Below are positions 12,554 to 32,824 of a DNA stretch of 34,379 bases, piece after piece (positions within the stretch are counted from its first letter, which is position 1; the number at the start of each line of letters is the position of its first letter). The position numbers were made by a program, and so were the translations under genes. Location of the stretch: the IMG/VR virus record IMGVR_UViG_3300050034_000124, positions 1 to 34,379 of that record, one strand, 5' to 3'. The stretch comes from a virus. The notes beneath the pieces were generated by a model. It did no database searches. It was not told the DNA's origin and saw only the letters and a program-made list of their open reading frames with translations.

Positions 12554-12582
12554 TTGACATGAATTTGAATTTCTGGTATCTT
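12554..12582 (+). promoter_or_regulatory. promoter for the NadM-Nudix / nicotinamidase operon
   Basis: TTGACA (12554-12559), a 17-bp spacer ending in CTGG, and TATCTT (12577-12582). This leaves a leader of about 90 nt before the ATG at 12679, unlike the other promoters. A second TTGACA at 12608 lacks a convincing -10. Confidence 0.65.
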
Positions 12583-12619
12583 TTACGCAAATCAATAATA
12601 TGTATTGTTGACAGCATAG

Positions 12620-12676
12620 ACCGAGATAAAAGATTAGGTTAGTGCTGATTCCATAACCGAGATAAAAGATTAGGTT
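12620..12676 (+). repeat. two 21-bp direct repeats in the NadM-Nudix leader
   Basis: The same 21 bases (beginning ACCGAGATAAAAG and ending ATTAGGTT) occur at 12620-12640 and 12656-12676, 36 bp apart; the second copy ends 2 nt before the ATG. In each copy a left (G/A)ACC can pair with the right GGTT around a 14-nt loop, and the one differing base at the stem end still pairs (G-T versus A-T). They could be tandem operator sites or two small RNA hairpins controlling translation. Confidence 0.7.
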
Positions 12677-12678
12677 TT

Positions 12679-13656
12679 ATGAAAACAACTGAAAATAATG
12701 CAGAAGTCGGCATCATCGTCGCAAGATTTCAAACTCCGTTTCTCCATGACGGACACAAGGAAATCCTTGAAACTGTTCGTACCAATCATCCCCGTGTCGT
12801 CATCTTCCTTGGGAATTCGTTCCTCAAATACACGGTAAATAATCCATTTGATTTTTCGATTCGGAAAGCCATGATCGAGGAACAGTATAAAGATGTTGAA
12901 GTCCTTTATATTGACGATGTTGGAGATAATGTGATTTGGAGCAATAACCTCGACCGTCAGATTCAAAAGCTTCTGGGTGCCAATCTGCGGGCAGTCCTTT
13001 ATGGCAGTCGAGATAGTTTCATCAATGGTTATGTTGGTAAATACCCGACGATTGAACTGATTCCGAGTAAATTCATCAGTGCCAGTGAAATTCGTCGGGA
13101 AGCTGGAATTCGTGCTAAACACACCCTCGACTTCCGCCTTGGTATGTGTCACGCTCTTCAAGCCCAATTCCCGTCATTCAAACTGACGGTGGATATGGCG
13201 ATTATGAATTTTGATACCCAAGAGCTTCTACTTGCCCGCAAACCGGGGCGTACAACGCTTTGTTTCGTCGGCGGCTTTTCTGACCCGACCAAGGATAAGA
13301 AAATAGAAGATGCTGCCATTCGGGAAACCATCGAGGAAACCGGATTGACGACAGATGCTTATATTTACATCGGAAGTGCCCTCATTGATGATCTCCGCTA
13401 TCGCAAAGAAGTGGATAAAATCATGACCGCGTTTTACCTGATGAAATATAACGGTGGCACACCCAAAGCCGATGATGACATCGAATTTGTCTGCTGGCGA
13501 AAACTGGTTGATATTAAGGATTCGGAAATCAGCCCGGCCCATCTGCCGCTGCTCAAAAAATTGCGGGAATTTCTAGCCAATCTGGATATTCAAATTTCCA
13601 AATTGCAATTGCTCAAAGAAAAATTTAGTCCCTTGTCGGGGACTGATAAACAGTAA
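12679..13656 (+). CDS. bifunctional nicotinamide/nicotinate-nucleotide adenylyltransferase (NadM-type) - Nudix hydrolase
   Basis: This is a 325-residue fusion. Residues 1-150 are a NadM-type nucleotidyltransferase: VARFQTPFLHDGH with the HxGH site at 23-26, and the second signature ISASEIRR (133-140). It joins ATP and (nicotinate or nicotinamide) mononucleotide to form the dinucleotide. Residues about 165-300 are a Nudix domain with RETIEETGL at 215-223; the front of the Nudix box (SDPTKDKK) is degenerate, so hydrolase activity on ADP-ribose-like substrates is less certain. The same fusion is known from cyanobacteria and from phage KVP40 (NatV). It is followed 23 nt later by nicotinamidase, with no promoter between them. 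Confidence 0.93.
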   Translation: MKTTENNAEVGIIVARFQTPFLHDGHKEILETVRTNHPRVVIFLGNSFLKYTVNNPFDFSIRKAMIEEQYKDVEVLYIDDVGDNVIWSNNLDRQIQKLLGANLRAVLYGSRDSFINGYVGKYPTIELIPSKFISASEIRREAGIRAKHTLDFRLGMCHALQAQFPSFKLTVDMAIMNFDTQELLLARKPGRTTLCFVGGFSDPTKDKKIEDAAIRETIEETGLTTDAYIYIGSALIDDLRYRKEVDKIMTAFYLMKYNGGTPKADDDIEFVCWRKLVDIKDSEISPAHLPLLKKLREFLANLDIQISKLQLLKEKFSPLSGTDKQ

Positions 13657-13679
13657 ACAAACAACATAAAGTTACATAT

Positions 13680-14489
13680 ATGACACGGAAAGTTACACTT
13701 ATTTGCATTGACCCTCAGAATGATTTCTGCATCCCCCTCGGCCCGGGTGGGGAAAAGGGTACATTGGTAGTTCCCGGGGCGGAACAAGACATGATTCGTT
13801 TGGGAAAGTTCATCACCAAGAACTCCAAGCGGATTGATCAAATTCACTGCACGTTGGATTCTCACCAATATGTGCATATTGCTCATCCTGCTTTTTGGGT
13901 CAATTCCAAGGGTGAACATCCATCGGCGTTCACACTGATCAGTGAGGATGACGTGAAGAATGGCACGTGGCGTTCGTTCAATCCCCAATGGCAGGGCGTG
14001 GCCGAAAAATATGTCGCTACACTCAAGGCACATGCCCGCTATATGTTGGTCATTTGGCCTCCGCATTGCCTGATCGGTACGTGGGGCCATTCCATTGTCC
14101 CACAAGTCGCTACTGCACTCTATGCGTGGGAAGCTGAATTCAATCGAATTAATTTCGTTGCCAAAGGCAGTAACCTCTTTACAGAACATTATTCGGCAGT
14201 TCAAGCTGACGTGGAGGATAATAATGATGTCAGCACTAAACTGAATACTGAACTCATTGAAGTGTTGACCAAGGCCGATGAAATCCTTATCACTGGCGAG
14301 GCTCTTTCACACTGCGTTGCGAATTCTATTCGGGATGTCGCTGCGAAATTTGGAACCGATCAAATTCAGAAGTTCACCCTTCTCGAAGACACGTCCAGTA
14401 ATGTGACGGGATTTGAGAAGCTCGGACAAGACTTCGTGAAGGACATGGTCAAACAGGGTATGAAAGTGACCCGCTCGACCGACTGGTAA
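13680..14489 (+). CDS. pncA: nicotinamidase (isochorismatase superfamily)
   Basis: This 269-residue protein fits nicotinamidase, which deaminates nicotinamide to nicotinate. Visible are the catalytic Asp11 in IDPQNDF, the metal ligands Asp60 and His62 in TLDSHQ plus a downstream His (66 or 69), WPPHCLIGTWG (126-135, the nicotinamidase WPxHC signature), Lys162 in VAKGSN, and the nucleophile Cys212 in GEALSHCVANS. It is longer than typical bacterial PncA (about 190-215 residues). It lies directly after the adenylyltransferase in one operon, which fits the Preiss-Handler route from nicotinamide. An inverted repeat follows its stop. Confidence 0.9.
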   Translation: MTRKVTLICIDPQNDFCIPLGPGGEKGTLVVPGAEQDMIRLGKFITKNSKRIDQIHCTLDSHQYVHIAHPAFWVNSKGEHPSAFTLISEDDVKNGTWRSFNPQWQGVAEKYVATLKAHARYMLVIWPPHCLIGTWGHSIVPQVATALYAWEAEFNRINFVAKGSNLFTEHYSAVQADVEDNNDVSTKLNTELIEVLTKADEILITGEALSHCVANSIRDVAAKFGTDQIQKFTLLEDTSSNVTGFEKLGQDFVKDMVKQGMKVTRSTDW

Positions 14490-14501
14490 ATTAACCACTG
14501 T

Positions 14502-14546
14502 GATTAACTAACTCTAAATAATTTGAAAATTTGGAGTTAGTTAATC
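14502..14546 (+). terminator. perfect 13-bp inverted repeat after nicotinamidase
   Basis: GATTAACTAACTC (14502-14514) is exactly repeated in inverted form as GAGTTAGTTAATC (14534-14546) around a 19-nt AT-rich loop. It sits between the NAD operon and the vWA gene. There is no U-tract, so it is either a weak bidirectional terminator or a dimeric-repressor operator for the kinase/phosphatase unit. Confidence 0.6.
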
Positions 14547-14574
14547 CAACCAATTAAAGAAAATAAATAAAGTT

Positions 14575-15330
14575 ATGAGTCTATTAGATACAAATCTCTC
14601 GGAGCTGAAAGCAGGCTCTGGATACAAATTCACAGCAACCAATATCAATGATCTGGGAGCGGCGGAATACACTCTCGCGACCATTGTGATGGACGCCAGT
14701 AGTTCGGTGGACCCGTTTGCGGCCCAACTTGTACAAGCAATTAAAACCATATTCAAGGCGTGTGATAAATCCCCTCGACGGGATAACCTCATGCTTCGGT
14801 TGACCCAATTTGCGGGTCAACTTACGGAACTGCATGGGTTCAAATTGCTCTCCGCCATTAACGAAAAGGACTATGACAATGTTCTTCAGATTGGTGGGAG
14901 TACTGCCCTGTTTGAAAGTGTGGATGAAGCTATTCAAGCTACCGGTACTTATGGTAAACAATTGACGAGCCAAGAGTTCTTGGTTAATGGGCTGGTGGTC
15001 GTTATTACAGATGGAGAAAATAATAGCGGAAACATCACAGATGCTTCTCAAATTAAAAAAACTCTTCAAGCTGTTCGTCGTTCGGAAAATTTGGAAAGTA
15101 TTCTATTGATACTCGTTGGGGTCACTCAAGACGACATTAACCTCAATACGTATCTCCAGACAGTCAAGAATGATGGTGGATTCGATAGTTATGTATCCAT
15201 TGGTACTGCTACGCCGGGAAAAATTGCGAAATTAGCGAGTTTTATTTCTCAATCTATTTCCAGTACTTCTTCGGCATTGGGAAGTGGCAAGGCGAGTGTT
15301 CCCCTCAATCCGAGTCAATTCAAATTCTGA
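14575..15330 (+). CDS. von Willebrand factor A (vWA) domain protein, TerY-like
   Basis: This 251-residue protein has an intact MIDAS metal site: DASSS at residues 40-44 (DxSxS), the Thr in GGSTALFE (about 107-114) and the Asp in VVITDGENN. vWA domains bind protein partners through this metal. The next host-type genes encode a PP2C phosphatase and a kinase-like protein, the same three components as the TerY-P signalling triad described in bacterial chromosomes. A Ser-rich C-terminal tail (SISSTSSALGSGK) could be the phosphorylated region, which is inference. No clear promoter is seen; the inverted repeat lies just upstream. Confidence 0.8.
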   Translation: MSLLDTNLSELKAGSGYKFTATNINDLGAAEYTLATIVMDASSSVDPFAAQLVQAIKTIFKACDKSPRRDNLMLRLTQFAGQLTELHGFKLLSAINEKDYDNVLQIGGSTALFESVDEAIQATGTYGKQLTSQEFLVNGLVVVITDGENNSGNITDASQIKKTLQAVRRSENLESILLILVGVTQDDINLNTYLQTVKNDGGFDSYVSIGTATPGKIAKLASFISQSISSTSSALGSGKASVPLNPSQFKF

Positions 15331-15422: not shown

Positions 15423-16343
15423 ATGAGTAGAAAATTGACAGTTGAAGAATTCATTTCTAAATCCAAACTTATTCATGGAGATAAATTTCAATATTCCAAA
15501 TTTGTCTATATTAATAATCGGACTAGAGGCATAATCATTTGTCCGATTCATGGTGAGTTTCAGCAGACACCGATGAATCATTTAAGTGGTAATGGATGTG
15601 ACGAGTGCGGTGGAACTTTGACCAGTAATACCCGGAAATTTATTTCAACCGCAAATTTAATACATTGCAATGCATATGATTATTCCGAGACGAACTATAT
15701 AAATAATCATACTAAACTTACTATCATATGTCCTATTCATGGAAAATTTAAACAGAAGCCCAATGACCATCTACAAGGAAAGGGATGTGCGACCTGTTAT
15801 GGGAACTCACGGTTAACAATACATGAGTTTATTGTTAAATCGACTGAAATCCACAATGGTTATTATGACTATTCTCGTGCGGTATATGTTAATAATCGGT
15901 CAAAGTTAATCATAATTTGTCCAAAACACGGATCATTTTTACAAAAGGCGAGTGACCATATGCGTGGAATTGGGTGTGGAAAATGCTCTTTGTCCAAGGG
16001 GGAGATAAAGATAGAATCATATTTGAAAATGGCTAAAATAAATTACATCTCGCAGCAAGTATTTGACGATTGTCTGAGTCCGAAAACACACAAACATCTT
16101 AAATTTGATTTTTTTGTTCCACATAAAAATTTATTGATCGAATATGATGGTGAGCAACATTTTCATTGTTGTAAATTTAATCGTGGGCATCACATAACCG
16201 GAAACGAGTTGGCCGAGACAAAATATAGAGACCGGATTAAAACTAAATATGCCAAACAACACGGAATTGTGTTAATACGGATACCATATACAAAAATGTC
16301 TAAAATCAATGATATTTTACGACAGGCATTGACAATTCGTTAA
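15423..16343 (+). CDS. putative homing-type endonuclease 1 (DUF723-like repeats + Vsr/PD-(D/E)XK-like nuclease)
   Basis: This 306-residue protein has three tandem repeats (about 8-62, 66-123 and 128-184) of the form EFI-IHG-YDYS-Y-N-II-CPIHG-F-Q-HL-G-GC-C, which resemble DUF723 zinc-ribbon repeats and should bind DNA. The C-terminal 100 residues contain KFDFFVPHKNLLIEYDGEQH and then YRDRIKTKYAKQHGIVLIRI, a small nuclease core like Vsr and phage free-standing homing endonucleases. It lies between the vWA and PP2C genes and is a paralogue of the gene at 17196. Its last codons contain the -35 box of the PP2C promoter. A 31-bp stretch in its nuclease core recurs at 29058. Confidence 0.7.
   Translation: MSRKLTVEEFISKSKLIHGDKFQYSKFVYINNRTRGIIICPIHGEFQQTPMNHLSGNGCDECGGTLTSNTRKFISTANLIHCNAYDYSETNYINNHTKLTIICPIHGKFKQKPNDHLQGKGCATCYGNSRLTIHEFIVKSTEIHNGYYDYSRAVYVNNRSKLIIICPKHGSFLQKASDHMRGIGCGKCSLSKGEIKIESYLKMAKINYISQQVFDDCLSPKTHKHLKFDFFVPHKNLLIEYDGEQHFHCCKFNRGHHITGNELAETKYRDRIKTKYAKQHGIVLIRIPYTKMSKINDILRQALTIR
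16167..16197 (+). repeat. 31-bp identical repeat, copy 1 (in endonuclease 1)
   Basis: This stretch inside the nuclease core of endonuclease 1 is identical over 31 bases to 29058-29088. Here it is read in the frame that encodes CCKFNRGHHI. The paralogous endonuclease 2 does not have it. Confidence 0.9.
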
Positions 16344-16356
16344 CTTGTGCTATTAT
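16329..16356 (+). promoter_or_regulatory. promoter for the PP2C gene
   Basis: TTGACA (16329-16334) lies inside the last codons of endonuclease 1, with a 16-bp spacer ending CTTGTGC and TATTAT (16351-16356). Six bases then lead to the ATG at 16363. Confidence 0.75.
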
Positions 16357-16362: not shown

Positions 16363-17145
16363 ATGAATGCCGATGGAATATTTTATATTGGAAAAGAGCA
16401 CCGAGTCTGTGAGGATTATACTATTTTCGCTCATGATGAGGAGGGAGCTTATATCGCCGTATGTGATGGATGTTCTGCATCTGATGATACGTGTTTGGGT
16501 TCAAGGATATTAGCTTTTTCTGCACAAGAAACATATTACAAAGGCAATTGTAAAACTGCCGATGAATTTGGAACGGATGCTATTGTTCGAGCGTCCTCGA
16601 TTTTCAGAATGTTGCCATCGCTTTCCCGGCACGCATTGGACACAACTCTCTTAGTGGCAATGGTCAGTAAGGATAAGAAACTAAATGCTTATCTTTATGG
16701 TGACGGCGTAATGGTCCATCGTAAGAAAGACAGTATTGTTGCTATCCATATCGAATTGTCGAGTGGGGCACCTGACTATCTATCATATCATTTGGACCCG
16801 CGACGTAAACAAGCATATGCGGCATTAAAGGAAAATACAAAAGAAATCATTATCCGAGAGAATACCACGGAGTCCACCCGGGTATATGCCCCTTTCGATC
16901 CCTTCGTTTATGACGCGACAGTCTCTGAGGGTGATGTAATTTCAGTTATTTCGGATGGGATCAATAGTTTCCGAAAAGCAGATAATGATTCAATTCCGTG
17001 GAGTGATCTGGTGGATGAATTCACCGGATATAAGAATTTTGAAGGCGTGTTTGTACAACGTCGTATGGCGGCGTTTAATCGAAAATGCTTAAAAGAGGGC
17101 ATAACACACTCGGATGATATAAGTGTAGCAAGTATCATTGTATGA
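16363..17145 (+). CDS. PP2C-family Ser/Thr protein phosphatase
   Basis: This 260-residue protein shows the PP2C metal-binding motifs in order: VCEDYTIF near residue 16, AVCDGCSAS near 33, AYLYGDG near 115, VISDGINSF near 205 and the closing HSDDISVASIIV. The VxDG motif keeps the metal Asp but reads CDGCS instead of the usual DGMGG. It should dephosphorylate Ser/Thr residues, probably those modified by the kinase at 18128. Starting at 16363 leaves the promoter non-coding. Its stop overlaps the frame of the inserted endonuclease 2 (ATGA at 17142). Confidence 0.85.
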   Translation: MNADGIFYIGKEHRVCEDYTIFAHDEEGAYIAVCDGCSASDDTCLGSRILAFSAQETYYKGNCKTADEFGTDAIVRASSIFRMLPSLSRHALDTTLLVAMVSKDKKLNAYLYGDGVMVHRKKDSIVAIHIELSSGAPDYLSYHLDPRRKQAYAALKENTKEIIIRENTTESTRVYAPFDPFVYDATVSEGDVISVISDGINSFRKADNDSIPWSDLVDEFTGYKNFEGVFVQRRMAAFNRKCLKEGITHSDDISVASIIV

Positions 17146-17195
17146 CACAGATAAAGATTATCACGCTTTTGGGACTTTTCTCGCTATTTATATGT

Positions 17196-18131
17196 ATGAG
17201 CGAGAAATTAACTGCGGAATCATTTATTGAACGGGCGACTTTAATCCATAAAAACAAATATGATTATAGTAAAACCATATATGGCAAAGACAACAAGGAC
17301 AAAGTGACAATAACATGTCCTATTCATGGCGAGTTCCGACAGAAGCCGAACTCACATTTACGTGGATGTGGATGTCATTTATGCAGTGGAAAACACGTTT
17401 CTAACACTAAGGATTTCATTAGTAAAGCAAGACGCATACACAATGACAAGTATGATTATTCGGAAGTTGAATATGTGGCGGCACTAAAGCCTGTCAAAAT
17501 CATTTGTCCTGAACACGGAGGGTTTGAACAACGCCCAAATACTCATTTGAATGGCGTAGGGTGTATAAAATGCGGGTTTATAAAAACTGCCAATGCACGG
17601 CGGAAAAGTCAATCGGACTTTATTATTGATGCTACCAATATTCACGGGAATCTTTATGATTATTCTAATGTCATTTATAAGGGGGAACACCAAAAACTAC
17701 AAATAGTGTGCAAACGTCATGGAACATTTTGGCAAACCCCACATCTCCATTTACATCGGGATAGCTGTGGATGTCCTAAATGCCGTCTGTCTAAAGGTGA
17801 ACAACGAATAATGACATTCTTAGATAAGAATGGCATTCAATATGTAACCCAAAAGACATTTGATGATTGTCGAAATCCAACAACCAATAGGCTATTGAAG
17901 TTTGATTTCTATTTGCCGCACAAGAATATTCTCGTAGAATATGATGGTAATCAGCATTTCACATGTGGGAGAAAGTTGGGAAATTATGTTTCAACCGCCA
18001 ATGACTTGGCAAACGTTCAATGGAGAGATTCAGTTAAGACAAAGTATGCTGCTGCAAAGGGCATTGAATTGGTCCGAATAAAATATACGGAAATAAATCA
18101 CATTCCTAAAATATTGTCACAAATAATATGA
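17196..18131 (+). CDS. putative homing-type endonuclease 2, paralogue of endonuclease 1
   Basis: From Met at 17196 the protein (311 residues) aligns along its length with endonuclease 1: MSEKLTAESFIERATLIH versus MSRKLTVEEFISKSKLIH, three CPIHG/CPEHG/CKRHG repeats with HL-G-GC-C endings, then KFDFYLPHKNILVEYDGNQH and WRDSVKTKYAAAKGIELVRI. The open frame continues upstream to an ATG at 17142 that overlaps the PP2C stop, adding 18 hydrophobic residues absent from the paralogue; I prefer 17196. Its TGA overlaps the kinase ATG. The gene sits exactly at the PP2C-kinase junction, as expected for an invading free-standing homing gene. Confidence 0.7.
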   Translation: MSEKLTAESFIERATLIHKNKYDYSKTIYGKDNKDKVTITCPIHGEFRQKPNSHLRGCGCHLCSGKHVSNTKDFISKARRIHNDKYDYSEVEYVAALKPVKIICPEHGGFEQRPNTHLNGVGCIKCGFIKTANARRKSQSDFIIDATNIHGNLYDYSNVIYKGEHQKLQIVCKRHGTFWQTPHLHLHRDSCGCPKCRLSKGEQRIMTFLDKNGIQYVTQKTFDDCRNPTTNRLLKFDFYLPHKNILVEYDGNQHFTCGRKLGNYVSTANDLANVQWRDSVKTKYAAAKGIELVRIKYTEINHIPKILSQII

Positions 18132-19855
18132 ACACAAAAGTTATAGTTGGAAATACGAAACAAGTAGTTACATTGCAAGCGTCCAACTACCGTGCCGCCG
18201 GGGGAGAAGCAGCCATATACGTAAACAATGGGATGGCGTATAAGCTGTATCACGACCCCGTTCACAAACAACTGCCGCCAAAGAAAATGCAGGAGTTGGC
18301 TTTGATTGGTAACTCGCAGGTGGTGATACCGAAAGAAATCATCTTCGACGCCAAGGATGGCAAACCCCTCGGCTACACCACGAACTTTGTGGATGGCGTT
18401 GAACCCTTGCTCAAATTATTTACCCGGACATTTAAGGATAGTAACAATATCAATTTCCAAGCGGTAAATTATCTGGTTAAGGAAATGCAGACAGTAGTAG
18501 CCGATGTTCATGCGTCTCATTGTCTTATCGTAGATTTGAATGAACTTAATGTTCTTGTTGAAATTCATCCTCCCACAATTATCCCGTGGTTCATAGACAC
18601 GGATAGTTATAGTACGCCCAGCTTTAAAGCTACGGCTATTATGGACTCTGTACGTGATCGCCGGGTAACTCGGTTTGATCGTAGTGGTACCATGCATTAC
18701 AATCCAGATATTGAGTCTGATTGGTTTTCATGGGCGATTTTGGCGTTTCAACTTTATACGAATATCCATCCCTATAGGGGAGGACATCCGAACTATAAAC
18801 CCCGGGACAAAGCCAAGCAAATGGATGATGGTATTAGTATATTCCATCCCGGTGTGCGGGTTCCTCCTTCGGTTAATGATTTTAAAGTCATTCCGCCCCG
18901 GCATTTAGATTACTTCAAGCGGGTGTTCTTCAATAATGAGCGAGGTATCCCACCGTTGCCAGATAGCAGTGTGCCATTGCTCGTGCCCACTCAGATCATC
19001 ACCATTAAGGGTACCGACAAACTCGGGGTGGAAGAAATCGCCGCGTATGGCGACCCGATCATGGACATCATTTCCAATATGGGTGTTTATTATGTGGCAA
19101 CAAAAACACATCTATATGCTGACAAAAAAGAAATTGGACAGCATAACGCCCATAAAATTCTTTTGGTTTCGGCATCTGATGGCACATTAGTTACTGCCCA
19201 GCAAGACAATAGTAATAACATTCAGTTCAAAGAACTGAGAAAATCCGACCCCATTGGCACCGCAACCAGTAATGCAATGTTTGCCCGAAATAATGCGATC
19301 TATACCATTAGTAAAGGAAAATTGATCGAGAACAGTTTTACGGCATTTGGAAATACCATGATTCATCGCATCAAAGAGGTGGAGAATTTAAGTGTTAATT
19401 CTACTCAAATGTTTAGCGGATGCGTAATACAAAATTTACTTGGTCGCTATTATATTACAATCCCGTATAAACTCGGGAGTTGTTTCAGTAAACATATTCC
19501 TCAATTCGATGGTTATCGCATCATTGACGCCAAGTCGGTAAAGAATGTTGCCGTCGTCATTGGCGAAAAACAAGGGCAATTTGACCGCTTCATCGTTATC
19601 TATAACAAAGATTATTCATCCTGTGATGTCCGCAAGGTTGAAGACATTGCATATAATACTATCAATCTGACCGTCATGGATAATGGATTATGTATTCTAC
19701 TAGCGAGTGATGATGAGTTGGAATTGTTTGCTACTGCGACTCAGTGTGAAACATTGTCCAATCCACCGATTGATTCGACCATGCAATTATTCTCGACGAG
19801 TGATGGTATTTTCTTCATTAATGGAAACAGTTTTCATCAATTAAGACGAAAATAA
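18128..19855 (+). CDS. Ser/Thr protein-kinase-like protein with C-terminal beta-propeller-like region
   Basis: This 575-residue protein has a kinase-like N-terminal domain (about 1-270): a Gly loop RAAGGEAAIY (22-31), the ATP-binding Lys39 in AYKLYHDP, a catalytic loop IVDLNELNVLV (134-144, with D136 and N141), DTD at 157-159 in place of DFG, and a DWFSWAILAFQLYT helix as in bacterial TerY-P kinases. Residues about 300-575 form repeated short beta units (GVYYVATKTHLYADKK, NAIYTISKGKLIE, GLCILLASDDELELF) suggesting a beta-propeller. Its ATG overlaps the stop of endonuclease 2. With vWA and PP2C it forms a signalling triad. The substrates are unknown. Confidence 0.75.
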   Translation: MNTKVIVGNTKQVVTLQASNYRAAGGEAAIYVNNGMAYKLYHDPVHKQLPPKKMQELALIGNSQVVIPKEIIFDAKDGKPLGYTTNFVDGVEPLLKLFTRTFKDSNNINFQAVNYLVKEMQTVVADVHASHCLIVDLNELNVLVEIHPPTIIPWFIDTDSYSTPSFKATAIMDSVRDRRVTRFDRSGTMHYNPDIESDWFSWAILAFQLYTNIHPYRGGHPNYKPRDKAKQMDDGISIFHPGVRVPPSVNDFKVIPPRHLDYFKRVFFNNERGIPPLPDSSVPLLVPTQIITIKGTDKLGVEEIAAYGDPIMDIISNMGVYYVATKTHLYADKKEIGQHNAHKILLVSASDGTLVTAQQDNSNNIQFKELRKSDPIGTATSNAMFARNNAIYTISKGKLIENSFTAFGNTMIHRIKEVENLSVNSTQMFSGCVIQNLLGRYYITIPYKLGSCFSKHIPQFDGYRIIDAKSVKNVAVVIGEKQGQFDRFIVIYNKDYSSCDVRKVEDIAYNTINLTVMDNGLCILLASDDELELFATATQCETLSNPPIDSTMQLFSTSDGIFFINGNSFHQLRRK

Positions 19856-23619: not shown

Positions 23620-23647
23620 TTGACTTTTTTGAACAGTGTGCTACATT
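23620..23647 (+). promoter_or_regulatory. promoter for nicotinate phosphoribosyltransferase
   Basis: TTGACT (23620-23625), a 16-bp spacer ending AGTGTGC, and TACATT (23642-23647), with seven bases to the ATG at 23655. Confidence 0.7.
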
Positions 23648-23654: not shown

Positions 23655-24824
23655 ATGAATATTATTGATGAGCCGATTATTAAATCAATGCTAGATGATG
23701 ATTTGTATAAACAAAACATGGGGTCTGTCGTATTTCATGATTTTCCCCGGGTCGTTGTGACCTACAAGTTTTTTCTCCGCAGCAAAGTTGAATTCCCTCC
23801 AAATTTTGCAACGGAATTAAATCGTCAAATTCAATTTCTGGCTCAACTCGAAATGACTAACGCCGAAGCCCATTGGTTGTTGTCCGCTGTCCCGTATCTT
23901 CGTCCTACATACATCGAATGGTTGCGTCATTATCGAATGGACCCCCGGGAAGTGATGGTTACTCAACATGGGGGAACGATTGGTATTGAGATTAAGGGGT
24001 ATTGGTATCGGGCTATTTTCTGGGAAGTGAAATTAATGGCCATCATTTCCGAATTGTTTTTCCGGCTTACCGGACAATCGAAAAATCCAGATTGGGAGCA
24101 GCGTATTATTGATAAAGCGAGAAAACTGGAAGCCGCTGGTTGTCACTGGATTGACTTTGGAACCCGTCGGCGGTATTCATACGAGGTACAAGATGCCCTC
24201 GTTTGTTATATGCGTCCGCGTGTTGGATTCTTGGGCACCAGCAATCCATTTTTAGCGATGAAGTATCATACTACACCTCAGGGGACGTATGCTCACGAAT
24301 GTATCATGGCAATGGCTGCTTTGTATGGCCCGAAGATGGCGGATGTCATCTGGCGGGAACATTGGGCTGAACACTTTGATGGTAACATGGGTGTGGCTCT
24401 AACAGATACTTTCACCAGTGAAGTGTTCTGGCGTGATTTTTCATCTTATGATGCTCGTCTGTTTGACGGTTGCCGTCAGGATAGCGGGGACGAATATGTA
24501 TGGGGAAATCAAATGTTGGCCCTTTACAAGCGACTCGGGATTCCTTGCTCCAACAAGCGAATGGTGTTTAGCAATGCATTGGATACGGATAAGTATATCG
24601 CTATTGATAGACACTTCCGGCAATTTGCCCTGCCGTGTGGGGGTATCGGAACTCATTTCACAAATGATGTCGGAGTGACTCCCCTGAATATGGTTATCAA
24701 ATTGACTTCGGCAGATTTTGGTCATGGTCCAGTTGGGGTGGTGAAGATGTCAGATGACCTCGGAAAACATATGGGCAGCCCCATGGAAATTGAACATATT
24801 CAACATGAATTGGGATTGAAATAA
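23655..24824 (+). CDS. pncB: nicotinate phosphoribosyltransferase
   Basis: This 389-residue protein matches the E. coli-type nicotinate phosphoribosyltransferase throughout: IIKSMLDDDLYKQNM (8-22), WIDFGTRRRYSYEVQ (165-179), FLGTSNPFLAMKY (192-204), GTYAHEC with His214 (the phosphorylated His position), CRQDSGDEYVWG, MVFSNALDTDK, GIGTHFTNDVGVTPLN and VVKMSDDLGKH. It makes nicotinate mononucleotide from nicotinate and PRPP, stimulated by ATP. This specificity, rather than a nicotinamide enzyme, fits the nicotinamidase and NAD synthetase in the window. The start at 23655 follows the promoter; the open frame extends 56 codons upstream through the tRNA-like structure and is rejected. Confidence 0.95.
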   Translation: MNIIDEPIIKSMLDDDLYKQNMGSVVFHDFPRVVVTYKFFLRSKVEFPPNFATELNRQIQFLAQLEMTNAEAHWLLSAVPYLRPTYIEWLRHYRMDPREVMVTQHGGTIGIEIKGYWYRAIFWEVKLMAIISELFFRLTGQSKNPDWEQRIIDKARKLEAAGCHWIDFGTRRRYSYEVQDALVCYMRPRVGFLGTSNPFLAMKYHTTPQGTYAHECIMAMAALYGPKMADVIWREHWAEHFDGNMGVALTDTFTSEVFWRDFSSYDARLFDGCRQDSGDEYVWGNQMLALYKRLGIPCSNKRMVFSNALDTDKYIAIDRHFRQFALPCGGIGTHFTNDVGVTPLNMVIKLTSADFGHGPVGVVKMSDDLGKHMGSPMEIEHIQHELGLK

Positions 24825-25607: not shown

Positions 25608-26075
25608 ATGACATCAGCGGGATTAATACTGTATAGAATAAAAGATGGGGGACTGGAAGTTTTTCTGGTTCATCCCGGAGGGCCTCTATGGGCAACCCGC
25701 GATATTGGTGCGTGGAGCATTCCGAAAGGTCTAGTCGAAGAAAGCGACTCGGATATTCGCGGTGCCGCCATTCGGGAATTTCACGAGGAAACGGGATTTG
25801 AACTTCCAACTTCCAATCTTATATCATTAGGGGAAATTACTCAAAAATCTGGGAAAATTGTTCATGCATGGGCAATACAAGACACTATTGGGGTTGACCC
25901 GAAATTGATGACTTCAAATCTAATTGAAATTGAATACCCTCGACACAGTAATACATTGATTACTATTCCTGAAGTTGACCGAGGAACGTTTTTCTCAATG
26001 GCAATGGCAGAGGTCAAGATAAATCCTGCTCAAGCCCCATTGTTACATCGTCTTTCTGCTGAATTGAACACTTGA
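25608..26075 (+). CDS. Nudix hydrolase
   Basis: This 155-residue protein has the Nudix box at about residues 41-64: GLVEESDSDIRGAAI followed by REFHEETGF, with the RE-EE-G metal-binding core intact. The preceding GGPLWATRDIGAWSIPKG is typical of a bacterial subgroup of small NTP pyrophosphohydrolase-like Nudix proteins. The substrate may be a nucleotide, ADP-ribose or a related compound; the box alone cannot decide. It lies between pncB and the NAD synthetase. The stop codon forms part of the next -35 box. Confidence 0.85.
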   Translation: MTSAGLILYRIKDGGLEVFLVHPGGPLWATRDIGAWSIPKGLVEESDSDIRGAAIREFHEETGFELPTSNLISLGEITQKSGKIVHAWAIQDTIGVDPKLMTSNLIEIEYPRHSNTLITIPEVDRGTFFSMAMAEVKINPAQAPLLHRLSAELNT

Positions 26076-26099
26076 CATTCTCATCCCCTGTGTTATATT
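26072..26099 (+). promoter_or_regulatory. promoter for the NAD synthetase operon
   Basis: TTGACA (26072-26077), a 16-bp spacer ending CCTGTGT, and TATATT (26094-26099), with six bases to the ATG at 26106. Confidence 0.75.
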
Positions 26100-26105: not shown

Positions 26106-26357
26106 ATGAAGAATGATTATTCCGCCAAAGAATATGCCATGATTTCGGAACTCTCTCCGCATTTAAAATCGGTGATTGACAAAGATGTGGACAATAGTAT
26201 TATGCCTCCCCAGATGCTTGAAATGGTTGCCATGCACTGTTTTATAAACAATCAGACTGGCCCGGCGGTGGACTCTCTTCGTCGGTGTATTAAAGCTCTT
26301 CATACATGCAGTGCTTATCGTCGGACGCCGGAATACGAGAAACTCATTGATTTATGA
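26106..26357 (+). CDS. small helical hypothetical protein, 83 aa
   Basis: This is a short, mostly helical protein (KEYAMISELSPHLKSVIDKD and MLEMVAMHCFINNQTGPAVD) with no family signature. Its stop overlaps the NAD synthetase ATG (ATGA at 26354), so it is the leader gene of that operon and probably couples its translation. It could help NAD synthetase assembly, but nothing in its sequence shows it. Confidence 0.6.
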   Translation: MKNDYSAKEYAMISELSPHLKSVIDKDVDNSIMPPQMLEMVAMHCFINNQTGPAVDSLRRCIKALHTCSAYRRTPEYEKLIDL

Positions 26358-28363
26358 AACTCATTAAAGTTGGTGCAGCGGTGTTAAACCAAACACCGCG
26401 TGATTGGGAGGAGAATAAAGCAAATATTCTCCGAGCAATTGAACTCGCCAAAGAGCAACACGTCTCAGTCCTTTGTTTGCCAGAAATGTGCATTACGGGC
26501 TATGGACTCGAAGACGATTTATTTTGTGCGGACGTCCCCGCTCGAGCCTTGAAGAAATTGGAGGACATCCTTCCTTTTACCACTGGCATCATTGTTTGTG
26601 TGGGTCTCCCGGTGCGTTTTGATAACAGTCTTTACAATGCCGTTGCCACTTTGTCGGATCGACTCCTCGTTGGATTTACGTGTAAACAACATTTGGCTGG
26701 GGATGGTATTCACTATGAGCCTCGTCATTACAAACCTTGGCCTGCGGGAGTGGTACAGCAATTGACTATCCCAAGTATGGCTCCCAAATCTTTTCCTATT
26801 GGTGATACTCATTTCATGTTTGATGGGGTGAAGATTGGATATGAAATCTGCGAAGACGCTTGGGTTGCATCACGTCCCGGGACTCGACTTGCAAGTAAAG
26901 GTGTAGATATTTATCTCAACCCGTCGGCATCTCACTTTTCATTCGGTAAGCTCCAGACCCGGCGTAATTTCGTTGTTGATGGTTCTCGTGCTTTCGGAGC
27001 CACTTATATTTATACGAATCTCGTCGGCAATGAAGCGGGGCGTGCTGTTTATGACGGGGGTGCCTTGATTGCTTCGGGTGGCGTGTTGTTAGCCGAAGGT
27101 AAACGATTTACATATCAAAATGTATTGCTTACCACGGCTATCGTGGATGTTCATACCACAAAGACGTCTCAGGTTCGTACTGCGAGTTTTCAGCCGAATG
27201 TGGAAGGCTACAATTCGGGATGTGTTAATGGAAATTTTACTTTTCCCGAAGTCACAGAACCATCATATCATACACTTCAAGACCCATGGGAAGATAAATC
27301 TGATACCAAACACGAGGAATGCACCCGTGCTCTTGGTCTGGCCCTGATGGATTATATGCGTAAGTCGCACACCAAGGGATTTGTTGTCTCACTGAGTGGC
27401 GGTGCCGACTCGGCAATGGTTACATATGCGGTTGTTCAAGGTATCCGCCTCGGAGTCCAAGAACTGGGACTTGAAAATTTTATATGGAAGTATTGTCCAC
27501 ACTTGAAAAAACAAGTCAATGTAATAACCATGGAGGAGCGTACATTAAAATGTTTAATTGAGCATCTTATTGTAACTGCTTATCAACCCACCGAAAATAG
27601 TGGAGAGGTAACTCGTACAGCGGCAGCAGAACTTGCTAAGGCTCTTGGTGTGCCTCATATGGTATTGAATGTTGATCCAGTGTTCAAAGCATATTTGGAG
27701 ATTGGTAAGCAAATTAAGGGTAGCGATTTGAATTTTAAGGATGATGATTCAACGTTGCAAAATCTTCAAGCTCGGGTTCGTTCTCCTAGTATTTGGATGA
27801 TTGCTAATATGCAGGAGAAGTTGCTCCTGACGACCAGCAATAGGTCTGAGGCTGCCGTCGGTTATTGCACAATGGATGGCGATTCTTCCGGCTGTATTTC
27901 GCCAATTGCAGGTTTGCCCAAAATTTATATTCGAGAATATCTCAAATGGGTTGCATTAGATGGACCCGAAGGTATTGGAGCATTACCGGAGATGCAATAT
28001 GTTAATACTCAACAGCCAACCGCCGAATTGCGTCCGGCTAAATACAAGCAGACCGATGAGGATGACCTAATGCCTTACTGGTTGCTTAATGTGATTGAAG
28101 GTTATGTAGTCAAGGATCGCTATGTGCCAGTTGAAATTTACAAGGCTATTAAACGAGATGTGGATTATGATAATAATCGTCTGATTGCTGATATAACTAA
28201 GTTCTTTCGGCTATTCAGTCGGAACCAATGGAAACGGGAGCGATATGCTTTATCCTTCCACTTGGATGACCATAATCTTGATCCTCGTACTTGGTGCCGG
28301 ACTCCCATTCTCACGGGAGCCTATGAGGAGGAATTGCGGGAACTGCAACAGTACAAAGTATAA
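26354..28363 (+). CDS. nadE: glutamine-dependent NAD synthetase
   Basis: This 669-residue enzyme has two domains. Residues 1-270 are a nitrilase-type glutaminase with the Glu-Lys-Cys triad visible: E44 (LPEMCITGY), K111 (CKQHLAGDGIHYEP) and C166 (YEICEDAW). Residues about 325-640 are the NAD synthetase with the ATP-binding SGGADS (348-353), then RVRSPSIWMIANMQEKLLLT and TSNRSEAAVGYCTMDGDSSG. It amidates nicotinate adenine dinucleotide to NAD using ammonia from glutamine; some relatives act on nicotinate mononucleotide instead. The length matches the long bacterial form. It is the final step of the Preiss-Handler pathway, so the phage need not rely on host NadE. Confidence 0.96.
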   Translation: MKLIKVGAAVLNQTPRDWEENKANILRAIELAKEQHVSVLCLPEMCITGYGLEDDLFCADVPARALKKLEDILPFTTGIIVCVGLPVRFDNSLYNAVATLSDRLLVGFTCKQHLAGDGIHYEPRHYKPWPAGVVQQLTIPSMAPKSFPIGDTHFMFDGVKIGYEICEDAWVASRPGTRLASKGVDIYLNPSASHFSFGKLQTRRNFVVDGSRAFGATYIYTNLVGNEAGRAVYDGGALIASGGVLLAEGKRFTYQNVLLTTAIVDVHTTKTSQVRTASFQPNVEGYNSGCVNGNFTFPEVTEPSYHTLQDPWEDKSDTKHEECTRALGLALMDYMRKSHTKGFVVSLSGGADSAMVTYAVVQGIRLGVQELGLENFIWKYCPHLKKQVNVITMEERTLKCLIEHLIVTAYQPTENSGEVTRTAAAELAKALGVPHMVLNVDPVFKAYLEIGKQIKGSDLNFKDDDSTLQNLQARVRSPSIWMIANMQEKLLLTTSNRSEAAVGYCTMDGDSSGCISPIAGLPKIYIREYLKWVALDGPEGIGALPEMQYVNTQQPTAELRPAKYKQTDEDDLMPYWLLNVIEGYVVKDRYVPVEIYKAIKRDVDYDNNRLIADITKFFRLFSRNQWKRERYALSFHLDDHNLDPRTWCRTPILTGAYEEELRELQQYKV

Positions 28364-28365: not shown

Positions 28366-29088
28366 ATGCCCGATATAACTTTAGCGATCATTGGCACAGC
28401 CGGGCGGCAAGACGATGCGAAGCATCTAACCAGAAGACATTTTGAGGCCATGCTATTTGTCGCGGGCGGGTTATTGGAGCAGATTAATGAGAGTAATTAT
28501 TCCATTACCCATCTCGTTTCCGGTGGAGCTGCTTACGCTGATCATGTTGCGGTACGTCTCTTCTTGGACAAGAAAGCACCCGGGCTACGACTCTTTATCC
28601 CTGCCGAATGGAAGGATGGAGCGTATTATGATTCCGGGGTAGATGATTTTAAAACTAATCCCGGACGCACGGCAAACTATTATCACCGGAAATTCCAAAG
28701 TGTCACCGGTATCAATGGGTTATCTGATATACAAATAGCAAAGTCCTATGGAGCCGAATTATATTGTTGCCGGGGAGGATTCCATGGTCGCAATGCAATG
28801 GTTGCCAAGTCAGACTTTCTTCTCGCAATGACATTCGGAAATGGACCAATTGTAAAAGCTGGTGGGACGGAGGATACAGTACGAATGTATTTAGATCGGG
28901 TCAGAAAAGAAGACCTCTTCGATAAGAGTTTTCACTACAATCTATCCGATGGGAAAATATATGAAGGATGTCAGGTCCCACCAAAAGAAACCCTAGTCAA
29001 TGACGTTCCGAAGTTTCTTGGGAAACGTCCTTTGCCGTCATATCTGCGGTGGTTGACTGTTGTAAATTTAATCGTGGGCATCACATAA
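28366..29088 (+). CDS. SLOG/Rossmann-like nucleotide-binding protein
   Basis: The N-terminus LAIIGTAGRQDDAKHL is followed by HLVSGGAAYADHVAVRLFLD and later FHGRNAMVAKSDFLLAMTFG with KAGGTEDTV. GTAGR, SGGA-x-x-AD and GGTxxT are the pattern of the SLOG superfamily (DprA, LOG and YspA-like nucleotide-binding proteins). SLOG domains sense or process nucleotides, and some in bacterial immunity bind cyclic ADP-ribose signals. It directly follows the NAD synthetase by 2 nt. Its last 10 codons fall in a 31-bp sequence repeated from endonuclease 1, so its original C-terminus may have been replaced. Confidence 0.65.
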   Translation: MPDITLAIIGTAGRQDDAKHLTRRHFEAMLFVAGGLLEQINESNYSITHLVSGGAAYADHVAVRLFLDKKAPGLRLFIPAEWKDGAYYDSGVDDFKTNPGRTANYYHRKFQSVTGINGLSDIQIAKSYGAELYCCRGGFHGRNAMVAKSDFLLAMTFGNGPIVKAGGTEDTVRMYLDRVRKEDLFDKSFHYNLSDGKIYEGCQVPPKETLVNDVPKFLGKRPLPSYLRWLTVVNLIVGIT

Positions 29089-30295: not shown

Positions 30296-30302
30296 TTGAT
30301 TT

Positions 30303-30620
30303 ATGAAGACCCGGGCTAATCGCATATTCAATGCAAACATTGATCTTTGGCTTATACTCATTGTTTTATTGACCTTGGTGTGGGGTATTATTTCTTGCCG
30401 GATCAACTCGGATAAGGATGATATTCAATCGTGGGCACGATCTCGGGGAGAGTCTATAGTTAGCATTGAATTTCGGGTATGGGATACGGGTCCATATTTC
30501 TATATTAAAAACGCCCGGTTTTATCGAGTGCAGACCGATACTAATGTTTATTGGGTTAAGTATTTTTGGGGATGTACCATTAATAAAGAGGTAGGTAAAC
30601 AATATGAAATCATTAAATGA
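30303..30620 (+). CDS. membrane-anchored hypothetical protein, 105 aa
   Basis: One hydrophobic segment (about residues 14-32, LWLILIVLLTLVWGIISC) is followed by a soluble beta-rich part (SIVSIEFRVWDTGPYFYIKN, ARFYRVQTDTNVYWVKYFW). The anchor and Cys33 after it do not form a typical lipobox. It overlaps the start of the next gene, whose ATG is at 30604. Function unknown. Confidence 0.6.
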   Translation: MKTRANRIFNANIDLWLILIVLLTLVWGIISCRINSDKDDIQSWARSRGESIVSIEFRVWDTGPYFYIKNARFYRVQTDTNVYWVKYFWGCTINKEVGKQYEIIK

Positions 30621-30897
30621 AATAAGATATGAAACTCCAACCGAGGATATTGATACTCAGTTGCAAACGGTCTTTCTTGCCGGTCCCACGGTTCGCGGGA
30701 ATCAGCCGCAACTGACGTCGGTGCGGCTCTTCGCGGTGCGATTGTTCAAACGGTTTAATTTCCATGGCAATTTAATTATTCCCGAATTCACGAATCCTAC
30801 GGAATCCGATCAATTCCGTTATGACATACATCATTGCAGATACACAGGCGGCTGGGAAATTATGGGCGAAAACGGACTTGTTGGAGGAACCATATAA
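30604..30897 (+). CDS. truncated nucleoside 2-deoxyribosyltransferase-like protein, 97 aa
   Basis: Residues 22-72 read TVFLAGPTVRGNQPQLTSVR and later LFKRFNFHGNLIIPEFTNPT, the front of the nucleoside 2-deoxyribosyltransferase family (FLAGP, then a helix and the PEF strand). Complete members have about 150 residues with a catalytic Glu further on. Here the frame ends at 97 residues, and its last 25 (HHCRYTGGWEIMGENG) overlap the front of the next gene in another frame. I think the back half was lost by deletion. GAGG-AGG lies upstream of the ATG inside the preceding gene. Confidence 0.55.
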   Translation: MKSLNEIRYETPTEDIDTQLQTVFLAGPTVRGNQPQLTSVRLFAVRLFKRFNFHGNLIIPEFTNPTESDQFRYDIHHCRYTGGWEIMGENGLVGGTI

Positions 30898-31039
30898 GGT
30901 TTTTTCAACCGACGCTCAACTCCGAGGACATGCATTTTATTTTCCCGATGACGTTTACATTCTCACTCGAAATCCCCAATTATTGGATTGTCTTCTTCCG
31001 GCATTGCTCGGATGCCGCGTTTTCAATGGTATAAAGTAA
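30821..31039 (+). CDS. hypothetical protein, 72 aa
   Basis: This frame starts inside the deoxyribosyltransferase fragment and gives a coherent small alpha/beta protein (MTYIIADTQAAGKLWAKTDL, then AFYFPDDVYILTRNPQLLDC). The opening IIADTQ resembles the first strand of a nucleotide-binding fold, but the protein is too short for one. It overlaps its upstream neighbour by 77 nt and is the last gene before the PEP-CTERM promoter. Confidence 0.5.
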   Translation: MTYIIADTQAAGKLWAKTDLLEEPYKVFSTDAQLRGHAFYFPDDVYILTRNPQLLDCLLPALLGCRVFNGIK

Positions 31040-31055
31040 AAGTTTGACAAATCAT

Positions 31056-31084
31056 TTGACAACATTCGACGAGTGTGTTATATT
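31056..31084 (+). promoter_or_regulatory. promoter for the PEP-CTERM protein
   Basis: TTGACA (31056-31061), a 17-bp spacer ending GTGTGT, and TATATT (31079-31084). The first ATG is nine bases away (31094). Another TTGACA lies at 31044 in the same AT-rich stretch. Confidence 0.7.
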
Positions 31085-31093
31085 TGTAGCGAA

Positions 31094-31777
31094 ATGAAAT
31101 TAAAAATCAACAACAACATGAAAAAATATCTATTGCTTCTCATTGCTGCTGCGACCCTCACGGTGTCATCGGCTTATGCAAACCCTACCAACACACCCTC
31201 GGCGACCATTACCCTCTCCCAAGGTGCATATTCGTATGCTGACGGGGGTGAATTTACAGCTACAACCAGTTTGAACGGTACATTTGAAACTTTTTGTACA
31301 GAAATAACTGTTGAATTTACACCGGGTCAAACCTATTCTTATTCATTGGGAACCACATCTCACAGTGGAATGGCTCTTACCGAAGGAACCGCATTTCTTT
31401 TTTATGAATTCACTATGGGAAATTTGTCGGGGTATAATTATACTGATGCTAAAATCCGGCAATCCGATGCTGGATTGTTACAAGCTGCTATTTGGGCATT
31501 CCAAGGGCAATCTATAGCCAACGGTGAAGAGTATCCAAGTGCAACGGCCACCCAAGGACAATATGGATATAATCCTTATTTCGCTCTAGCAGTTAATGAT
31601 TTGGGTGGTAATGCATATAATCCCAACGATGGTAAATATTCAGTTGACATTCTTCAATTGTCATCGGGAAATACGCCTGCTCAAGACCAATTGATTTGTA
31701 CGACTCCCGAGCCTACCACGATGGCATTGATTGGCATGGGTGGACTCTCACTGTTCATGATTCGTCGCCGAAAATAA
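31094..31777 (+). CDS. PEP-CTERM sorting-signal protein (exosortase substrate)
   Basis: This 227-residue protein has a signal peptide (MKKYLLLLIAAATLTVSSAY ending AYA) and a C-terminal PEP-CTERM tripartite signal: PEPTTMALI, then GMGGLSLFMI, then RRRK. Exosortase-bearing Gram-negative bacteria export such proteins and process them at the PEP motif. The mature part is Ser/Thr/Gly-rich and beta-like (GGEFTATTSLNGTFETFCTE). The signal peptide may start at ATG 31118, with 31094 adding MKLKINNN. The gene has its own promoter and a strong terminator. For a phage genome this is unusual and suggests capture from the host. Confidence 0.85.
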   Translation: MKLKINNNMKKYLLLLIAAATLTVSSAYANPTNTPSATITLSQGAYSYADGGEFTATTSLNGTFETFCTEITVEFTPGQTYSYSLGTTSHSGMALTEGTAFLFYEFTMGNLSGYNYTDAKIRQSDAGLLQAAIWAFQGQSIANGEEYPSATATQGQYGYNPYFALAVNDLGGNAYNPNDGKYSVDILQLSSGNTPAQDQLICTTPEPTTMALIGMGGLSLFMIRRRK

Positions 31778-31804
31778 CTTAACCCACGCCAACCCTAAAC
31801 TAGG

Positions 31805-31831
31805 ACGCCACCCTTCGGGGGTGGCGTTTTT
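31805..31831 (+). terminator. strong rho-independent terminator after the PEP-CTERM gene
   Basis: ACGCCACCC pairs with GGGTGGCGT around a TTCG tetraloop, followed by TTTTT. The promoter of PRPP synthetase begins only 4 nt later. Confidence 0.93.
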
Positions 31832-31834
31832 AAT

Positions 31835-31862
31835 TTGACAACCAATCCACATGTGTTATATT
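31835..31862 (+). promoter_or_regulatory. promoter for PRPP synthetase
   Basis: TTGACA (31835-31840), a 16-bp spacer ending CATGTGT, and TATATT (31857-31862). Eight bases lead to the ATG at 31871. Confidence 0.75.
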
Positions 31863-31870
31863 GTCACCAC

Positions 31871-32824
31871 ATGAAGCCACAACGCTGCGTACTATTTGCG
31901 GGTGATTCCAGCCGGAAGCTCGGGCAGGCGATCACGGATATTTATCATAATGAAATTATCATGGGAAACATCTATTCCCATACTTTTCCAAGTGGTGAAA
32001 AATATTGTCAACTCCGAGAAAATATACGGGGGGATGATGTCTTCCTGCTCCAAGCCATTTGCTCGCCAGCCAATGACAATCTCATGCAATTGCTCGTTAT
32101 GGCGGATGCCTGTCGGCGGGCATCTGCGGCACGCATTACTGCCGTTCTCCCCATGTTCGGCTATCAACGCCAAGATCGAAAAGACAAGCCCCGGGTGCCC
32201 ATTTCTGCTAAATTGGTCGCGAACCTGCTGGTGGCTTCCGGTGTGAACCGTATTCTCACAATGGATTTACACGCTCAACAGATTCAGGGGTTTTTCGACA
32301 TCCCCGTTGACCATCTATATTTTCGTCCATCCTTGATGACGGCACTTGAAGGATTGGATATTCAAACCGTGGTTGCTCCTGATATGGGTGGGATTAAGAA
32401 AGCCATGGATTTCGCAACCAAATGTCACCTTGAATTTGCATTCGTGGTTAAGCAACGTAATAGTGATACCGAAGTCGAAGCCGTCCGGTTTGTCGGTGAT
32501 GTTAAGAATAAGAATATTCTTTTATTGGATGATCTTACGGAGTCCATGGGAACGCTTTGTGCCGCAGCGACGGAATGCAAAAAGAATGGAGCTGCCAATA
32601 TATATGCGGCAGTAACTCATGGATGTCTTACCCAGATGGGTACTACAATTTTGGTTAATGCATTATTCAGTGGACTCATCAAACAATTCTTTTGTTCTAA
32701 CACCGTGACCGAAACGACCCTTCCCCCGTGGACGGGAGCAACAATTGTTGATGTGGCAGACGTTTTCGCCACGGCAATCACCAAAATCCACGACAATGAA
32801 AGTGTCACTGAACTTTTCCAATAA
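31871..32824 (+). CDS. prs: ribose-phosphate pyrophosphokinase (PRPP synthetase)
   Basis: This 317-residue protein, the usual Prs length, converts ribose 5-phosphate and ATP to PRPP and AMP. Motifs in order are FPSGEKYCQLRENIRGDDVF, PMFGYQRQDRKDKPR (the ATP-binding flexible loop), LTMDLHAQQIQGFFDIP, APDMGGIKKA and the PRPP-binding NILLLDDLTESMGTL. The last reads DDLTESMGT where most bacteria have DDxxDTGGT, so this is a divergent member. PRPP is the co-substrate of the nicotinate phosphoribosyltransferase at 23655. The start at 31871 follows the promoter and matches the family N-terminus. Confidence 0.94.
   Translation: MKPQRCVLFAGDSSRKLGQAITDIYHNEIIMGNIYSHTFPSGEKYCQLRENIRGDDVFLLQAICSPANDNLMQLLVMADACRRASAARITAVLPMFGYQRQDRKDKPRVPISAKLVANLLVASGVNRILTMDLHAQQIQGFFDIPVDHLYFRPSLMTALEGLDIQTVVAPDMGGIKKAMDFATKCHLEFAFVVKQRNSDTEVEAVRFVGDVKNKNILLLDDLTESMGTLCAAATECKKNGAANIYAAVTHGCLTQMGTTILVNALFSGLIKQFFCSNTVTETTLPPWTGATIVDVADVFATAITKIHDNESVTELFQ

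Follow-up and report, generated by a model that had tools for sequence, protein, structure and literature searches.

The window analysed here comprises all 34,379 bases of the IMG/VR virus record IMGVR_UViG_3300050034_000124 (G000), a fragment of a larger virus genome whose genes lie nearly all on the + strand. Judged from its sequence, it likely carries a deamidating salvage pathway for nicotinamide adenine dinucleotide (NAD), linked to a trio of genes encoding a VWA protein, a PP2C-type phosphatase and a protein kinase, with a two-hairpin leader adding control. Gene content, domain identity, catalytic residues, recurrence, linkage and selection were observed, and it is from these that the enzyme activities, the order of the steps, the control and the purpose are deduced.

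Enzymes of the proposed NAD pathway and their expression signals

The five enzymes named in an earlier sequence-only reading of this DNA were found where that reading had put them, in uninterrupted open reading frames (ORFs) on the + strand that keep their catalytic residues. The NadM-type nucleotide adenylyltransferase fused to a Nudix domain (12679-13656) exceeds the Pfam cut-offs of both domains (CTP_transf_like, 24.4 bits; NUDIX, 43.4 bits) and reaches no full-length equivalog cut-off; its best PDB matches are the NadM-Nudix structures 2qjt and 2qjo. The nicotinate phosphoribosyltransferase PncB (23655-24824) passes its curated cut-offs (PRK05321, 393.9 > 379; TIGR01514, 347.8 > 269.55), and its phospho-histidine H214 is invariant across ten phage sequences. 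NadE (26354-28363), a glutamine-dependent NAD synthetase with glutaminase and synthetase parts, passes the cut-offs for the NAD-synthase domain (TIGR00552, 96.8 > 63.65) and the CN-hydrolase glutaminase domain (70.6 > 23.2), does not reach the full-length equivalog cut-offs, and has 3ilv as its best PDB relative, matched over the full length with 534 bits. The phosphoribosyl pyrophosphate (PRPP) synthetase Prs (31871-32824; PRK01259, 328.7 > 297) is encoded about 1.2 kb downstream of pncB in relatives. Right after nadE lies an ORF (28366-29088) that by eye appears to be of SLOG/LOG type; it has no Pfam match and recurs at 67 % in the contigs L010 and L011.

By sequence, PncA (13680-14489) is the weakest family assignment of the five, and its identification draws on structure and active-site residues. 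Its AlphaFold model has a mean predicted local distance difference test score (pLDDT) of 95.9, and the first 15 matches of the fold search were all nicotinamidases (Z 21.1-24.1; 2wt9 24.1, yeast Pnc1 23.9), with the non-nicotinamidase enzymes of the isochorismatase fold ranking lower (Z <= 20.0). All 46 viral and bacterial homologues compared keep the catalytic residues D11, K162 and C212 and the metal-binding D60, H62 and H129. Sequence and model thus point to a divergent, nicotinamidase-like enzyme. Codon comparison with relatives indicated strong purifying selection on NadM (pN/pS, the nonsynonymous and synonymous values, 0.08/0.72), PncA (0.14/0.66) and NadE (0.22/0.73).

A pattern scan of the window for the promoter TTGAC-N15-17-TGnTAnnnT returned 17 sites on the + strand and none on the - strand, against a control mean of 0.62. 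Such + strand sites precede the nadM-pncA unit (a sigma70-type promoter, TTGACATG...TGGTATCTT, at 12554-12582, 97 nt upstream of the start codon), the PP2C gene (16329-16356), pncB (23620-23647, with the ATG 7 nt downstream), the unit running from the gene at 26106 to nadE (26072-26099) and prs (31835-31862, with the ATG at 31871, 8 nt downstream); a TTG-started ORF at 31835 begins within the -35 box of the prs promoter. The earlier proposal that the NAD genes share similar promoters therefore stands for NadM, PncB, the NadE unit and Prs, but what they share is a general phage promoter that also serves many other genes, and not a NAD regulon. At most sites the ATG lies 6-8 nt past the -10 box, and a Shine-Dalgarno sequence was found at none of the 22 window starts examined, so that the transcripts seem to be leaderless. 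This form is used by PncB, the NadE unit and Prs, the nadM-pncA unit being the exception, with a leader of about 90 nt.

Two 21-nt direct repeats on the + strand of the nadM leader form a pair of tandem hairpins whose 14-nt loops are identical. One lies at 12612-12647 (loop GAGATAAAAGATTA; fold z -2.28) and the other at 12652-12681, the latter with the start codon of nadM (ATG 12679) base-paired to its 3' arm. Tandem hairpins with differing stem sequences were also found before nadM in L126 and L128, and a weaker form in L133 (fold z-scores -2.3, -2.4, -2.5 and -0.7 for the window, L126, L128 and L133, respectively), a comparison that rests on fold and not on covariation, MAFFT misaligning the leaders. 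In a scan of 12.4 Mb, made up of both strands of all sequences retrieved for this analysis, the strict form occurred only before nadM of the window, L126 and L128; the other matches to the tandem hairpin look like AT-rich chance. Searching Rfam over 12350-12760, NAD+ riboswitches included, gave as best result a chance-level match to a small nucleolar RNA (E = 7). Taken together, the predicted folds are suggestive of a structured element, which by hiding the nadM start codon would probably add translational control.

A kinase-phosphatase cassette beside the putative nicotinamidase gene

Downstream of pncA, and on the same strand, lie genes for a TerY-like VWA protein with the MIDAS motif DASSS (14575-15330; Pfam VWA, 33.7 > 23.8), a PP2C-type phosphatase (16363-17145; Pfam PP2C_2, 36.8 > 24) and a protein kinase (18128-19855) in which the kinase domain (residues 1-288) is followed by a C-terminal beta-propeller-like domain (299-575). 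A sequence search of the PDB with the kinase gave no match, whereas the fold search did return kinases (Z 18.5; AlphaFold pLDDT 90.6); its catalytic residues are conserved, and the C-terminus consists entirely of strands, arranged in a propeller-like manner, according to DSSP of the AlphaFold model. PADLOC matched neither the trio nor PncA. Two related treble-clef ORFs occupy the gaps between the VWA and PP2C genes (15423-16343) and between the PP2C and kinase genes (17142-18131); they look like homing-type insertions, and the first has DUF4379/DUF723-like matches. A GIY-YIG gene is contained in the cassette of L205.

This arrangement is strongly conserved. Among 80 viral PncA loci, taken with as much as 10 kb of flanking sequence in either direction, VWA was found in 74, PP2C in 71 and the kinase in 71, and in all 74 loci having VWA it is the same-strand neighbour of PncA, with a median gap of 44 bp. 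A reverse scan of 80 kinase loci found PncA in 76 (within 10 kb), VWA in 77, PP2C in 79 and PncB in 27; the two sets share contigs and near-identical copies, and their counts are not independent. PncA nearly always heads a PncA-VWA-PP2C-kinase cassette. In L166/L167, L176 and L205, the order is PncA-VWA-PncB-NadE-PP2C-NadD-like-kinase, placing NAD genes inside the trio: PncB of these cassettes passes its cut-offs, the NadE proteins of L166 and L205 exceed the cut-off of the NAD(+) synthase equivalog (748 and 807 > 473), and the NadD-like enzyme of L166, L176 and L205 has nicotinate-nucleotide adenylyltransferase as its best family, with a score below that family's cut-off. Of the conserved surroundings of the nicotinamidase, the trio, which the sequence-only reading left out, is the strongest. 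The literature yielded no description of a nicotinamidase or NrtR together with VWA and PP2C, and the nicotinamidase-linked cassette is more novel than the pathway itself.

The cassette is also found in bacteria. A scan of 84,980 species genomes gave 239 stretches with this PncA, and the best 80 of them have VWA (26), PP2C (30) and the kinase (23) within 6 kb. The order in L366, an Armatimonadota contig of 1.36 Mb, is Prs followed by PncA-VWA-PP2C-kinase-NadE; in L298, from Acidobacteria, it is NrtR-PncA-VWA-PP2C-kinase, with the winged-helix domain of NrtR passing its cut-off (PF21906, 95.9 > 27). Since NrtR regulates NAD genes in response to ADP-ribose, its presence beside the bacterial cassette ties the cassette to NAD metabolism by an independent line of evidence. 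About one in three of the bacterial loci has an NrtR relative near PncA, and so do some huge phages. The latter are represented by L182, L185, L195, L204 and L449, where NrtR-like Nudix and winged-helix regulators stand close to the PncA cassette. A quick PncA tree with many weak branches requires 15 switches between virus and bacteria labels (at least 3 on well-supported branches), compared with 31 for shuffled labels, a sign that PncA was exchanged repeatedly between viruses and bacteria.

Recurrence of the gene set and comparison with known phage systems

Searching phage genomes for the five proteins, as had been proposed, showed all of them together in G002, G003 and G007. In G003, the closest long relative (365 kb), which holds all five, the four NAD enzymes and Prs lie within about 19 kb. 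The NAD enzymes of the set are also present in LR756500, and near-complete sets were found in Agrobacterium phage Atu_ph07, LR756511 and LR756501. Searches with alignments as queries detected this PncA in 117 viral stretches and PncB relatives in 250, a single-protein scan for PncB having returned none. Of the viral contigs selected by PncA, 22 are 150 kb or longer; 18 of these have NadE and 16 a PF04095 protein, four of the latter being weak matches of about 450-530 amino acids. Among the 50,697 INPHARED records the genes are rare (PncB relatives in 13, NadE relatives in 14), and a nucleotide search of the window's NAD region against phage records gave no match. The gene set is real and recurrent, and the window is neither its first sighting nor its sole case; its recurrence in dozens of huge-phage contigs and in the cultured phage Phosso argues for a genuine deamidating (Preiss-Handler-type) NAD route and not a chance assembly.

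Some related arrangements were observed along the way. In a human faecal phage contig (L022, MT835470.1:22917-25724), genes for an isochorismatase-family protein, PncB and NadE stand side by side. A second small nucleotidyltransferase (PF01467, 43-49 bits), a CoaD- or NadD-like candidate, lies near nadE in G003 (158580-158960), G005 (95805-96194) and G001 (2699-3085). Xanthomonas phage X1, a close published relative of phage BUDD, is listed with pncB, nadM, nadD and nadE; since neither the PncB nor the NadE matches obtained from the phage collection included any Xanthomonas phage, that listing was not relied on.

The published surveys consulted here describe only NadV, NadM and NadR (PMC7824862, PMC9503650). 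The KVP40-type NadV-NadM/NadR salvage resembles the window in rebuilding NAD from nicotinamide with PRPP and in using a NadM-Nudix enzyme, but NadV makes nicotinamide mononucleotide (NMN) directly, whereas the window would proceed by deamidation (PncA, PncB) and re-amidation with glutamine (NadE). The sole PF04095 protein is PncB, both in the window fragment and in the 365 kb of G003. According to Iyer et al. (2022), every phage with NadM also has NadV (PMC9503650); in LR756500, by contrast, NadM is accompanied by only one PF04095 protein, namely PncB. Indeed, PncB and NadV, both detected by PF04095, were never found together in the huge-phage records examined: LR756511, LR756500, LR756501, Atu_ph07, Phosso and the IMG/VR relatives carry PncB, and LR745206, Tunturi_5, LR756502 and LR756504 carry the NadV type, a label given because of the Tunturi_5 annotation and the lack of a PncB match. 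The NARP1 system (Adps and Namat) restores NAD in two steps from ADP-ribose and nicotinamide. It shares with the window the restoration of NAD by a phage, and Adps functionally parallels PRPP synthetase; by the cut-offs of the PRPP synthetase and nicotinate phosphoribosyltransferase families, however, the Prs of the window scores as a canonical PRPP synthetase and its PncB as a nicotinate enzyme. The analysis supports the claim that a complete deamidating route, including a glutaminase and a PRPP supply of its own, differs from these published phage routes.

Closer precedents are scattered and were either left undiscussed or mentioned in one line. The cultured Sinorhizobium phage Phosso (PV764938) has a compact cluster of genes for NAD synthetase, PncB, a MutT protein, NMN adenylyltransferase and a hydrolase, the last with an isochorismatase family score and a weak nicotinamidase match. 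Phosso and Atu_ph07 share with the window an annotated NAD synthetase and PncB and an isochorismatase-family hydrolase, but the proteins are distant (PncB, 28-29 % identity), and the Phosso NadE is a single-domain ammonia type, unlike the two-domain enzyme of the window. No VWA-PP2C-kinase trio was found in the Phosso and Atu_ph07 stretches compared. The paper on Atu_ph07 does not discuss the NAD pathway, and the Phosso cluster is likewise annotated but undiscussed. For the wastewater huge phage 5-SewaE, four nicotinamide-to-NAD enzymes were mentioned in one sentence in 2023, with neither gene names nor route nor context in the accessible portion of the text (PMC10747093). The pathway is thus a variant of phage NAD replenishment. 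Regarding the trio, the TerY-P triad likewise encodes VWA, PP2C phosphatase and protein kinase together (PMC11090510), but its kinase ends in a zinc ribbon or OB-fold, whereas that of the window ends in a beta-propeller-like domain and has the nicotinamidase as constant partner; since the C-terminal zinc ribbon or OB-fold is missing, the trio is called TerY-P-like and not TerY-P.

Probable pathway, purpose and origin

In the most likely order of steps, PncA would convert nicotinamide to nicotinate, Prs would make PRPP, and PncB would join both into nicotinate mononucleotide (NaMN); NadM would then adenylylate NaMN to nicotinate adenine dinucleotide (NaAD), which NadE would amidate to NAD with glutamine. 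The Nudix domain of NadM-Nudix may recycle ADP-ribose or related dinucleotides. The VWA-PP2C-kinase trio would sense or control NAD status through protein phosphorylation, since PncA is kept beside it and NAD supply may therefore be under such control.

The set would serve to maintain high NAD levels in the infected cell, also in the face of host NADases. Depleting NAD is one of the main ways in which bacterial immunity works, and the phage countermeasures known to date take short amidated routes from nicotinamide or ADP-ribose. Escape from host control and recovery of NAD after NADase immunity, as earlier proposed, are plausible purposes for the route. Alternatively, and with a probability that we place somewhat short of even, the pathway could mainly supply metabolism for replication, feeding NAD-dependent DNA ligase and other NAD users: LigA (1970-3928) consumes NAD, and all NAD units are driven by the phage's general promoter. 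On the other hand, a macro domain with a DarG-like match suggests a conflict over ADP-ribose, and known phage NAD systems counter NADases. Supply and NADase escape do not exclude each other. The macro-domain protein itself (8679-9155; Pfam 19.5 < 22, DarG model 39.9 bits, phrog_335 131 bits) is, by these scores, likely an ADP-ribose-binding or -processing enzyme. Close to it, the C-terminal half (YHVSPS...RIGLVP) of the protein encoded at 7726-8421 reads, by eye only, as ADP-ribosyltransferase or Tpt1-like, and no Pfam, PHROG or PADLOC match was obtained for this protein.

Several points weigh against the deamidating, trio-linked reading. PncA scores below the curated family cut-offs (Pfam Isochorismatase, 24.5 < 27; PRK11609, 27.3 < 174), many relatives are metagenomic fragments in which gene absences carry little weight, the linkage counts cover only the family of the window, from which the PncA patterns and the kinase alignment were seeded, and NAD genes lie within 10 kb of only a minority of PncA cassettes. 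Moreover, some NadM-family enzymes prefer NMN (PMC3376133), so that amidation could precede or follow adenylylation. The same genes might then act in a Francisella-like order, NadE serving as NMN synthetase (NaMN to NMN) and NadM converting NMN to NAD. Francisella indeed pairs NadM, an NMN-capable type of adenylyltransferase, with an NMN-making NadE (PMC3376133), and elsewhere among huge phages (W05-W08) this phage family of NadM-Nudix enzymes is paired with the NMN-making NadV. This order is nevertheless unlikely: the NadE of the window is of the two-domain glutamine type near 3ilv, whereas the Francisella enzyme has a single domain; relatives that share the cassette have both a NadD-like enzyme and a canonical NAD synthase; and the bifunctional NadM of Acinetobacter works alongside a type F NAD synthetase of the conventional kind (PMC3376133).

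The distribution of the cassette bears on a further possibility, namely that PncA and the trio form a separate conflict or signalling module removing nicotinamide or a similar amide, with PncB, NadE and NadM merely co-resident. In 45 of the 80 viral PncA loci the trio is present with no NAD gene within 10 kb, and TerY-P trios are found in defence systems (PMC11090510). However, several phages have PncB and NadE inside the cassette, bacterial copies adjoin NrtR or NadE, and NadE lies elsewhere on most long PncA contigs, which together make a separate module rather improbable. The tight linkage of the trio to PncA in phages and, beside NrtR, in bacteria suggests for a TerY-P-like module a role that can be tested directly; what modules of this class do is still largely conjecture. 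The deamidating route, common in huge phages and absent from the surveys (PMC7824862, PMC9503650), also alters the tally of phage NAD strategies. A bolder proposal, which we hold only tentatively and consider somewhat less likely than not, is that the PncA-VWA-PP2C-kinase cassette with PncB, NadE, NadD/NadM and sometimes NrtR constitutes an undescribed phosphorylation-controlled system of NAD homeostasis, swapped between bacteria and huge phages, and that the tandem hairpins of nadM represent a novel type of RNA by which this phage clade senses a metabolite.

Finally, the window is a piece of a huge tailed phage, as judged from the genes of its relatives. The sequence-only reading had called the genome phage-like, to be abandoned if the flanks proved to be bacterial chromosome; the related contig G003 has genes for the terminase large subunit, portal and major head protein about 160 kb from its NAD genes. 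An origin of the contig from a bacterial chromosome or from contamination, as the lack of a structural gene in its 34 kb and the presence of a PEP-CTERM protein and metabolic genes might suggest, is hardly credible, since the record is classed as viral, LigA has the phage family phrog_3869 as top match (445 bits) and a homologous cluster lies on the 365-kb G003 contig with those structural genes. The PEP-CTERM protein (31097-31777), with a signal-like N-terminus and a sorting motif (26.5 > 20.7 bits), is unusual for a phage and may hint at an exosortase-bearing host, e.g., from the Verrucomicrobiota. Another phage protein (11005-11697), which has its own leaderless promoter, contains an acyl-carrier-protein-like domain (PP-binding, 41 bits).

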